In this document: positions 11,003 through 12,466 of the stretch, piece by piece | Layout: the number at the start of each line of letters is the position of its first letter | Numbering within the stretch: position 1 is the first letter of the stretch | From: Oscillospiraceae bacterium | GTDB lineage: Bacteria; Bacillota; Clostridia; Oscillospirales; Ruminococcaceae | Assembly (NCBI GenBank): GCA_017472735.1 | Contig: JAFUOD010000003.1 | Span: 62,001-126,000 of the forward strand | DNA length: 64,000 nt | Direction of reading: 5' to 3' | Translations under genes and position numbers: made by a program | The notes under the pieces: model-generated | The model's database searches: none | The model's input: only the letters and a program-made list of their open reading frames with translations | Told to the model about the DNA's origin: nothing

Positions 11003-11043
11003 TAAAAAATGCCAAAACGCCGCCAAAGTATTCTTTGACGGCG
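11003..11043 (-). terminator. Terminator ending a minus-strand non-coding transcript
   Basis: Minus-strand hairpin CGCCGTCAAAG / CTTTGGCGGCG (11018-11043) followed by a T-rich tail. It lies upstream of the rpe promoter and cannot belong to rpe, so it closes an RNA made from further upstream. Confidence 0.75.
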
Positions 11044-11115
11044 GTATATAAAGCGGTTCTCGTCCCGATGATCTCCCCCTGCACCGGGCAGGAGTTTGTA
11101 CCGCTACAATATATT
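11044..11115 (-). ncRNA. Candidate small structured RNA
   Basis: Between the two terminators on the minus strand lies a foldable segment. An outer stem AGCGGT / ACCGCT encloses CTCCTGCCCGG...CCGGG-like inner pairing, directly followed by the terminator hairpin at 11018-11043. A weak -10-like TATATT lies just upstream (about 11108-11113). I do not recognise the family. Confidence 0.3.
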
Positions 11116-11145: not shown

Positions 11146-11179
11146 TAAAAGAAAAGGAGCGGCACTTAAGACCGCTCCT
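11146..11179 (-). terminator. Terminator closing the mini-ORF array transcript
   Basis: Hairpin AGGAGCGG / CCGCTCCT (11155-11179) followed on the minus strand by TTTTCTTTTA. It ends the transcript that starts near 11715. Confidence 0.75.
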
Positions 11180-11251
11180 GTATTATAATTTATATCCGAA
11201 TCAATTTTCGGGGAACTGAACTGTTCTTTGGACTCACCCTTTCGTTTTGTC

Positions 11252-11281
11252 TTAAAGAATTTCGATCTTGTATAGTTTCAA
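11252..11281 (-). CDS. Mini-ORF 3 of the array (MKLYKIEIL)
   Basis: TTG at 11281 with GGGG nine bases upstream, nine codons then TAA, followed by GAAAGGGTGAGTCC. Same layout as the neighbouring units. Confidence 0.3.
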   Translation of the reverse strand: MKLYKIEIL

Positions 11282-11400
11282 TGAAACCATCCCCTGTTTA
11301 TTTTAGAAAAACGTCAAGATTGGTTGGCGTTTGTTTATCTATCTAAATGCCCTAAAGGCTGCTTCAGAACTTTTTTGGACTCACACCTTTCAACGTGATT

Positions 11401-11427
11401 TTAAATATCAGGTCTTATTACCTTCAA
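11401..11427 (-). CDS. Mini-ORF 2 of the array (MKVIRPDI)
   Basis: TTG at 11427 with AGGAG nine bases upstream, eight codons then TAA, followed by GAAAGGTGTGAGTCC. Same layout as the neighbouring units. Confidence 0.3.
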   Translation of the reverse strand: MKVIRPDI

Positions 11428-11524
11428 GAGAATCATCTCCTAATGTATATCCGTTTGATGTTTGTCTTAAAATAAATCTTTCTGAATTAAAGCTTACGCA
11501 ATTGCGGGACTCACCTCTTTCGGT

Positions 11525-11563
11525 TTATTTTGAATCTCCTGTTCCGCTGCGTGCAAGTTTCAT
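11525..11563 (-). CDS. Mini-ORF 1 of the array (MKLARSGTGDSK)
   Basis: ATG at 11563 with GGAG ending ten bases before it, twelve codons, then TAA. The block GAAAGAGGTGAGTCC follows within a few bases of the stop. Length and the repeated context suggest either a leader peptide or a structural coincidence in an RNA repeat. Confidence 0.3.
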   Translation of the reverse strand: MKLARSGTGDSK

Positions 11564-11722
11564 GATAACCAGCTCCAATAAAATTAGTTCTTGTTTGCCG
11601 TTTTGAATGAAGCCATTAGTCGTTAAGGTTTTGCCTTATACGCCTTTCAGTTTCTCATCGGAACCCTCTCCTTTAAATTTGGTTTCTTACTTTCTTTTAT
11701 CTTTTCTCTTTTCTGTGATTTA

Positions 11723-11751
11723 AATATATCATATTTTTTGTGCATTGTCAA
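11723..11751 (-). promoter_or_regulatory. Consensus promoter of the mini-ORF array
   Basis: Minus-strand TTGACA (11746-11751), 17-base spacer, TATATT (11723-11728). It is one of the best promoters in the window, yet drives no conventional gene. Confidence 0.8.
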
Positions 11752-11809
11752 CAGTTTTTTTGAACTTTTTTAAAAATATTTATTTAATAATATGTTTACA
11801 CTTTTGTGG

Positions 11810-11894: not shown

Positions 11895-12239
11895 ATGGAC
11901 GAATATAACTACATTCCCGAGCTTTACACCTTGGTTGATGAAGAAGGCGTTGAGCAGACCTTTGAAATGCTTGACTCGTTGGTTGACGGTGATGAAACCT
12001 ATTATGCAATGGTCCCCTATTATGAAAATCCGGAGGACTTGATCAACGACAGCGGCGAGCTTGTTATTTTGAAATCGGACTATGTTGACGGCGAAGAAAT
12101 GCTTATAACAGTTGACGATGACGACGAGTTTGAGCGTGTGGGCGCTATCTTCTTGCAGCGACTTGAAGAAATGTTTGAAGGTGAAGAAGATGAATGCGAC
12201 TGCGGCGACGACGGATGCGATTGCTGCCATCATTCATAA
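11895..12239 (+). CDS. DUF1292 (YrzB-family) protein
   Basis: Very acidic 114-residue protein of unknown function. The core (about 8-75), with ELYTLVDEEG, YYAMVPY and ELVILKSD, is typical of the YrzB/DUF1292 family, which in Firmicutes commonly sits beside ruvX (yrrK). Here ruvX lies 740 bases further on, on the other strand. The Asp/Cys/His-rich tail (CDCGDDGCDCCHHS) is an addition that could bind metal. The gene starts at ATG 11895 behind AAGGAG. Confidence 0.88.
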   Translation: MDEYNYIPELYTLVDEEGVEQTFEMLDSLVDGDETYYAMVPYYENPEDLINDSGELVILKSDYVDGEEMLITVDDDDEFERVGAIFLQRLEEMFEGEEDECDCGDDGCDCCHHS

Positions 12240-12271
12240 ATCATTAAAAATCGCATAAACTAATTAATAAG

Positions 12272-12466
12272 ATTCTGCCTTGTGCGACCAAGCATGGATT
12301 TATAATCCAACACATATTAAAAGGGATTCGTACTCCGAAGACGGATTGCAGACCTCCCGCTTAAGCGGACGAAGGGAGCGTGAAAGCTTTGGGACGTTTT
12401 ACCCACCCTGCATTCGTGCGGGTTTTATGTTCCATGCGACGGCAAGGCGGAGTTTTTGTTTTTTTA
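12272..12466 (+). ncRNA. ssrS: 6S RNA (RNA polymerase-binding regulator)
   Basis: Two distant segments pair to close a 180-base structure: CTGCCTTG (from 12275) with CAAGGCGGA (about 12443-12451), and GCATGGA (12292-12298) with TCCATGC. The interior folds into a further long imperfect stem, and the 3' end runs into a T-rich tail (GTTTTTGTTTTTTT). Length, long irregular rod shape and position are those of 6S RNA, which binds the housekeeping RNA polymerase in stationary phase. Primary sequence of 6S is poorly conserved, so this is a structural call. Confidence 0.65.

Follow-up and report, generated by a model that had tools for sequence, protein, structure and literature searches.

The window (the whole stretch of DNA that was analysed, 64,000 nucleotides) carries on its minus strand, between positions 11791 and 11147, an A-rich stretch, a TTGACA-17-TATATT promoter, about 540 bases and a strong terminator (Table 1). 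No gene of a normal kind lies between promoter and terminator on that strand; the opposite strand has one mechanical 91-codon TTG frame (11331-11606). The original prediction had placed a promoter and a terminator around 540 bases free of normal genes; both elements are found, at 11751-11723 and 11179-11147, and the absence of a normal gene is true of the minus strand. It had also described four units made up of GG(A/G)G, nine bases and a start codon followed by a Lys or Arg codon, and all four are present: GGAG, GGAG, GGAG and GGGG stand exactly nine bases ahead of ATG-AGA, ATG-AAA, TTG-AAG and TTG-AAA, respectively, and the units encode 3, 12, 8 and 9 residues. The 64 kb window holds nine occurrences of GGRG-N9-DTG-ARR (shuffle mean 2.16, largest 5), four of them at the array.

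Table 1. Coordinates of the features read at the array locus and beside it.
Feature	Positions	Strand	Basis
Promoter: TTGACA 11746-11751, TATATT 11723-11728, A-rich region 11752-11791	11723..11791	-	11/12 consensus, own-genome promoter matches
Mini-ORF 1: GGAGAGGGTTCCG + ATG AGA AAC TGA (MRN, stop)	11647..11671	-	MKR, MKN or MKM and stop in 18 other genus loci
Mini-ORF 2: GGAGCTGGTTATC + MKLARSGTGDSK, stop	11525..11576	-	MKLARSWI and stop, or MKVLxxARxGx, in many relatives
Block B1 GAAAGAGGTGAGTCC, GTG-start mini-ORF MSPAIA, stop (11494-11514)	11494..11521	-	GTG frame, 6-8 residues, 27/27 genus loci
Mini-ORF 3: GGAGATGATTCTC + TTG start, MKVIRPDI, stop	11401..11440	-	MNVNKHKIL and stop, with close variants, in 11 relatives
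Block B2 GAAAGGTGTGAGTCC, GTG-start mini-ORF MSPKKF, stop (11364-11384)	11364..11391	-	Read from sequence
Mini-ORF 4: GGGGATGGTTTCA + TTG start, MKLYKIEIL, stop	11252..11294	-	Read from sequence
Block B3 GAAAGGGTGAGTCC, GTG-start frame MSPKNSSVPRKLIRI, stop (11190-11237)	11190..11243	-	Read from sequence
Intrinsic terminator AGGAGCGGTCTTAAGTGCCGCTCCT-TTTCTTTT	11147..11179	-	Read from sequence
Divergent neighbour, DUF1292 gene (PF06949)	11895..12239	+	Pfam; also beside units in genera of two families
6S RNA (RF00013) behind DUF1292	12269..12457	+	Rfam

A second block, GAAAG..GTGAGTCC, is present three times in the array. With one mismatch allowed, the only two matches to GAAAGNNGTGAGTCC in the window lie at the array (shuffle mean 0.04), and the third copy of the block, GAAAGGGTGAGTCC (11243-11230), is one base shorter than GAAAGNNGTGAGTCC. 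The clustering of units and blocks thus exceeds chance. The original prediction had taken this element for a conserved block following the units; the three copies stand, but the block is best read as a mini-ORF in its own right, started by GTG and closed by a stop (MSPAIA, MSPKKF and MSPKNSSVPRKLIRI), and on this reading the array consists of seven tandem mini-ORFs. The fixed nine-base spacing that had been described is exact in the window, but distant relatives share TCC-N-ATG and GTGA-N-TCC instead.

A Pfam scan of six neighbours in the window returned DUF1292, RuvX, an epimerase and MecA, with two having no Pfam match. At 11015-11045, in the interval that separates the array from the epimerase gene, a further hairpin that ends in a T-rich tail is probably another terminator. 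A divergent DUF1292 gene stands beside units in at least ten genera belonging to two families (f1 and f24), and in 15 of the 20 array-bearing loci given to Rfam a 6S RNA adjoins DUF1292, as it does in the window; Rfam found no 6S RNA beside DUF1292 in the other five (L011, L013, L070, L078 and L079). No DUF1292 gene was found within the few kb fetched around six arrays (L194, L195 and L197-L200), L200 being cut there by a contig end. Among array-bearing loci, mini-ORF array, DUF1292 and 6S RNA form a conserved neighbourhood.

Within the genus the locus is widely kept. Matches by blastn were obtained in 22 of 60 genomes, the window's own included, all of them in the genus and none among the 29 genomes outside it. 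A pattern scan of 396 genomes of the family, allowing at most two mismatches, gave 26 matches in 22 genomes (5 matches for the reversed control) and adds five genus members, which places the locus in 27 of the 31 genus genomes; the other four (G007, G012, G013 and G015) gave no match by blastn or pattern scan. The unit-1 frame is ATG AAG AGG and a stop in 15 of the 19 loci matched by the unit-1 pattern (14 TAA, 1 TAG), the remaining four reading MRN (the window), MKN twice and MKM. Ten orthologues found by blastn show no change in the unit-1 site or in either GTGAGTCC block. The original prediction was staked on homologous loci keeping both kinds of block, and in the genus they do: block 2 is present in 27 of 27 loci, and the unit-1 site is kept in the 19 loci found by its pattern. 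Contigs were scanned as well, and 19 stretches matched, from assemblies of Clostridia, Oscillospiraceae or Ruminococcaceae and mostly, judged by their titles, from animal gut samples; these overlap the genome set, several contigs occurring in both.

Beyond the genus, there are 28 occurrences of the exact pattern AAAGNNGTGADTCCNATG in the order, spread over 24 of 197 genomes (reversed control, 0), and 22 of the 28 stand before frames of at most 30 codons. From 51 units collected, four were dropped, and 36 of the remaining 47, two of the window's three blocks among them, were used to build a sequence profile of the unit (model R1). Run over the window and 400 kb of its own genome, the model gives three matches, all at the array locus, and on the whole genome one more, a leader mini-ORF on another contig. 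At an E value of 0.1 it matches 119 of 295 order genomes, about 30 being expected by chance from the E value. By eye, among the matches listed, at least 18 order genomes have two or more matches within about 1 kb, and these clusters fall in five families (f1, f13, f17, f20 and f24). Twenty regions of the order that we inspected are mostly arrays, of 2 to about 10 units. One locus (L188) has a 201-base repeat carrying ATG GAT AGA TGA, GTG AGT CCG GCA TTT ACA TAA, ATG AAC TGA and GTG AGT CCC ACA ATT ACT TAA; two others (L186 and L190) have a single leader unit ahead of a gene. At L180 an entire one-unit gene is duplicated in tandem, both copies having a promoter-like sequence of their own, and a gene that we take to be rubrerythrin-like is adjacent; at L177 a THF riboswitch (RF01831, 1041-1141) lies downstream of an array and before what is presumably a folate-transporter-like gene. 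Single units encoding MFN, MGS, MG, MVHL, MSPLGQ and MGQEIEQ, each closed by a stop, are leader mini-ORFs at L186 (G000:C4), L098, L102, L103, L058 and L110, and the genes behind them look, by their sequence, secreted or membrane-bound. In family f13, L088-L095 carry leader frames of 16-18 residues (MVTEETSYRFAGLAATL, MVSEIEQEFRTARLAGAH) behind an array-type site, and conserved sequence past these frames could represent a structured leader; no Rfam family matched L089, L091 or L095.

A sample of the phylum (299 genomes) has 15 occurrences of the motif, in 14 genomes (control, 1), and 14 of these 15 stand before frames of more than 30 codons, whereas in the order 22 of 28 precede shorter ones. 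In a sample of the class, 24 of 291 genomes match the model at an E value of 0.01, six of them in the order. Among seven loci outside the order, L243 can be read as an array that ends in a terminator, L242 and L248 stand ahead of long open frames, and L245 and L246 show one unit; the genome of L244 has two model matches 361 bases apart, and another array may thus lie there. A phage origin was considered and rejected: the strict block-2 pattern was found in none of the viral contigs, and a looser pattern in ten, as single units only, five of them before frames of 2-11 codons. On four of the viral contigs (L217, L221, L223 and L225) the site stands ahead of 2-codon frames (MG, MV or MH and a stop).

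Several lines of evidence bear on whether the frames are real. For 29 loci picked by hand, and with limits set by eye, 88 matches were reduced to 72 distinct ATG/GTG units and 38 block-B matches to 37. In 41 of the 72 units a stop lies no more than two codons past the start, as against 4 and 10 when the frame is shifted; for a limit of one codon the counts are 24 in frame and 3 and 6 out of frame, and for three codons the in-frame count is 41, for a shuffle mean of 18.6 and a largest shuffled value of 29. Among the 37 block-B units the GTG frame is closed within five codons past GTGANTCC-N in 29 and the other frames in 18 and 4, a contrast with the +1 frame that is weaker than for the ATG/GTG units, and closure within three codons (16; shuffle mean 10.3, largest 17) is not above shuffles. 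In block B of the genus, the GTG frame is closed within six codons past GTGANTCC-N in 27 of 27 loci, against 8 and 0; its peptide is MSPA(I/Y/F).. in all but one locus, which has MIPAYSFV, and loci that have lost the usual stop (L025, L065 and L066) regain one in frame after one or two further codons.

Substitutions point the same way for two of three peptides. We took the shorter of two in-frame starts. The comparison omits the lengthened NKHKIL frame of L017 and the unrelated frames that occupy its position in L009, L029 and L030; it also omits ARSG-type frames (L009, L028 and L029) and four MKVL copies that show no difference across the 12 codons used. For MKLARSWI, seen in 13 genus sequences of which 6 are distinct, all seven distinct changes are synonymous and at third positions (24% expected; p 4e-5), and for MxVNKHKIL 7 of 12 changes among 11 sequences are synonymous (22% expected; p 0.007), p values that are optimistic because the genus sequences are related; MKVLxxARxGx, with 3 of 10, has no excess over chance. 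The comparison of codon-type with base-pair-type conservation that the original prediction proposed gives only synonymous change in MKLARSWI and, in ten close orthologues, a fold nearly without covariation. We therefore consider it very probable, judging from closure and substitutions, that the locus is a real, translated array of mini-ORFs, although the GTG of block B lies too near GAAAG for a normal start and may need coupling. A Pro-Pro pair, encoded by differing codons, recurs in one mini-ORF of each of six loci (L041, L045, L057, L175, L181 and L243), in frames such as MNEVPPESYPK, MKDTPPESNLK, MIEVPPESNLK, MKNETPPAHFIK and MKMENNPPE (contexts EVPPES, DTPPES, ETPPAH, DTPPAV and NNPPE). 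Pro-Pro is a known ribosome pausing motif, and these frames would therefore fit a slowing of the ribosome.

Since the window's own assembly contains no 16S gene, the 16S 3' end was taken from six other genomes of the family; in these, which belong to genera other than the window's, it reads GGATCACCTCCTTTCT. GGTGA and TCC of the unit pair with GGAUCACC of the 16S rRNA, where N alone bulges out, and CUUUC is the partner of GAAAG. Among the 47 collected units N is G in 38, A in 5 and T in 4, and the upstream sequence is mostly AAAG-(A/G)-(G/C)-G; the collecting patterns demand TCC or TGA-N-TCC with N other than C, and the invariance of the core is thus built in and is not evidence. Two counts do not depend on the collecting patterns: the 28 occurrences of the exact pattern in the order against none for its reversed control, and TCC-N-ATG, which precedes only 1 of 327 ordinary genes of the window's genome. 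Ranked by the energy of the duplex with the 16S tail among the sites of these 327 genes, units 1-4 fall at the strongest 5, 39, 8 and 44% and B1-B3 at the strongest 2, 6 and 9%. By calculated pairing, five of the seven window sites are strong, lying in the strongest tenth, but not exceptional, and units 2 and 4, which lack TCC, are average. In six of six genomes read (L112-L123), which are of genera other than the window's, the anti-Shine-Dalgarno is able to form a pairing (CUCC...GGAG) with the 16S trailer. We note that some sites may be hairpin-gated, since in 24 of 58 block-B type elements, many from one genus, GTGAGTC can pair with a downstream GA(C/T)T(C/T)(A/G) (shuffle mean 4.3, largest 11); comparable pairing is found in 3 of 36 ATG-type units (shuffle mean 2.7).

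The promoter resembles those of ribosomal genes. In the window it matches 11 of 12 consensus bases with a 17-base spacer and has a TG before the -10 element. Promoters and terminators were counted in 28 hand-oriented loci of the 29 (L188, cut on its 5' side, was excluded): 20 have a promoter with at least 11 of 12 consensus bases and a 17-base spacer (shuffle means 8.1-9.1), and the remaining eight score 8-10, close to shuffles. A terminator-like hairpin lies within 250 bases past the last unit in 21 of the 28, a count made without a shuffle control; the window's real terminator is the 11179-11147 hairpin, whichever the count picked. An A/T tract lies upstream of 22 of 22 array promoters and 18 of 18 promoters before 16S genes of the family, as against 16 of 31 background TTGACA-17-TANNNT sites. 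When the locus and its promoter were compared with the window's own genome, the two best other matches both fell on the promoter region. One is the promoter of the operon for ribosomal proteins L13-S9; the other is an rrn-like promoter whose leader, CTTGAAAATTGAACAAT, is as in rrn leaders of the family and runs into a contig end, and it apparently starts an rRNA operon.

Taken together, these features are best explained by a standalone RNA gene whose transcript would be a string of ribosome-engaging mini-ORFs; we infer, from sequence, that the array is transcribed and that a ribosome, once it has terminated, initiates anew where it is. A ribosome can translate a frame of 2-8 codons many times over before it departs, and for mccA (7 codons) an estimated 71 rounds were obtained against a ribosome-sequestering competitor mRNA, falling to 30 at 11 and 6 at 15 residues (PMC6495379). 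With this precedent, the very short frames, the 16S-fitted sites and the rRNA-like promoter make a ribosome-holding RNA the simplest reading, and holding or buffering of ribosomes is, tentatively, the function that we favour. A promoter of the ribosome-biogenesis type would make the RNA, the amount of which should thus follow ribosome synthesis. In a typical unit the extended Shine-Dalgarno sequence AAAG..GGTGA-N-TCC would pair with the 16S 3' end, the start codon following right after the site and the stop usually coming 2-12 codons on, so that a ribosome ending near its docking site may remain tethered and restart. Each unit would then hold one ribosome, initiating and terminating again and again, and the array would keep occupied a number of initiating ribosomes that depends on growth rate. 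Against holding, some frames have 12-20 codons, lengths at which tethered restart is known to weaken, and two peptides are constrained at the amino-acid level, beyond what a pure sponge needs.

Because two peptides are constrained, the main rival is a polycistronic micropeptide gene, in which peptides of 3-15 residues would be the product and would act on their own ribosome or elsewhere. The synonymous changes in MKLARSWI and MxVNKHKIL and the Pro-Pro motif that recurs with differing codons argue for it, but the peptides are unlike between genera, many frames have only 2-3 codons and MKVLxxARxGx changes at chance level, so that we regard this rival as rather unlikely. The residues could, however, slow or tether the ribosome, in which case holding and a peptide function would both be true. 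The original prediction had offered a micropeptide locus and a ribosome-sponge RNA as separate options; both gain from frames that are very short, under selection and placed behind 16S-complementary sites and a promoter of the ribosome-gene type, and the two may be faces of one thing. The mini-ORFs might instead tie up particular tRNAs, as do the minigenes of the bacteriophage λ bar loci, which likewise have frames of a start and 2-6 codons. Such a tRNA or peptidyl-tRNA sink would suit the ATG AAG AGG stop kept in 15 of the 19 unit-1 frames found in the genus, and the recipe of Haloarcula hispanica CreT is a strong site and a 4-codon frame (PMC8501985); but codons vary across genera (TAC, GGC, AAA, GAC, AAC, GCA) with no common doubled rare codon seen, and an antitoxin-like gene is absent among the six Pfam-scanned neighbours, which makes a sink improbable.

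We give as little credence to a non-coding regulatory RNA in which the GGTGAGTCC elements would bind a protein or a trans RNA. The hairpins open to 24 of 58 block-B elements would suit it, but the frames are closed in phase, the RNA of the window folds no better than shuffles (z -1.25), and no covarying conserved structure was found in ten close orthologues (covariation term 0.1, 2 of 114 pairs compensatory). Rfam returned only sub-threshold matches for the array and none above a gathering score; in the other loci given to it, it found only tRNA, 6S RNA and a THF riboswitch, all outside the units. An antisense partner was sought and rejected: on both strands of the assembly GGTGAGTCC or its complement occurs at four places, two of them array units, one a leader mini-ORF and one inside a 238-codon open frame, which is no enrichment over the reversed control (5), and no trans RNA was found. 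In-phase closure, solely synonymous change in MKLARSWI and nearly absent covariation likewise speak against the suggestion that the conserved bases merely mimic ribosome sites. That the array is a leader or attenuator of a downstream gene seems to us very improbable: single array-type units do precede genes elsewhere (L186, L098, L102 and L103), but here the array ends in a terminator, the gene that comes next, for ribulose-phosphate epimerase, has its own TTGACA-17-TATACT, and the downstream gene is of another kind in L010 and L017 and of a third kind in L016. It is also conceivable, though we think it quite improbable, that the RNA serves to try out new 30S subunits. The core pairs with GGAUCACC, at and just before a CCUCC that could be locked in the CUCC...GGAG trailer hairpin; a bound core might serve as a toehold that opens this hairpin in unprocessed 16S rRNA, the tiny frame would give the young subunit a trial initiation and termination, and the rrn-type promoter and the place beside 6S RNA would supply the RNA in step with ribosome synthesis.

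If the ribosome-holding reading is true, the array would be a new means by which a cell sets the number of ribosomes free to initiate, and the buffering of ribosome capacity against growth rate would become directly testable. It also represents a class of gene that tends to be missed by gene finders and RNA-structure screens alike, since such genes are too short for an ORF and too unstructured for a non-coding RNA.

Our search of the literature, in which subscription journals were thinly covered, returned no account of such arrays. The insect tarsal-less/polished-rice RNA, like the array, carries several tiny frames on one polycistronic micropeptide RNA, but it is eukaryotic, acts in developmental signalling and has a peptide motif in common among its frames. 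A leader-peptide attenuator has its regulated gene in the same transcript, whereas here there is a terminator and the downstream genes differ. With mccA of microcin C (PMC6495379) the array shares a very short frame and a strong site and would share the restarting of ribosomes on one mRNA, and frames of about 2-8 codons behind strong sites are indeed found (41 of 72 units; five of seven window sites in the strongest tenth); mccA, however, is one frame feeding the MccB antibiotic pathway, the array has 2 to about 10 tandem frames, and Pfam found no mccB-like modifying enzyme gene among the six window neighbours. CreT is likewise a small RNA with a frame of a start and 2-6 codons, in one case behind a strong site, but it needs doubled rare codons and an antitoxin linked to CRISPR (PMC8501985), whereas the array repeats its unit with varying codons and, judged by codon identity, shows no CreT-type pair of rare codons after the start, the codons differing between units and genera. 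STAB-SD (PMC3997798) shares a strong Shine-Dalgarno site that can act without a start codon, but it is a single site that stabilises a gene, whereas the arrays have frames and no gene. Each of the nearest kinds, mccA, CreT, STAB-SD and leader peptides, thus shares one feature with the array and misses another.
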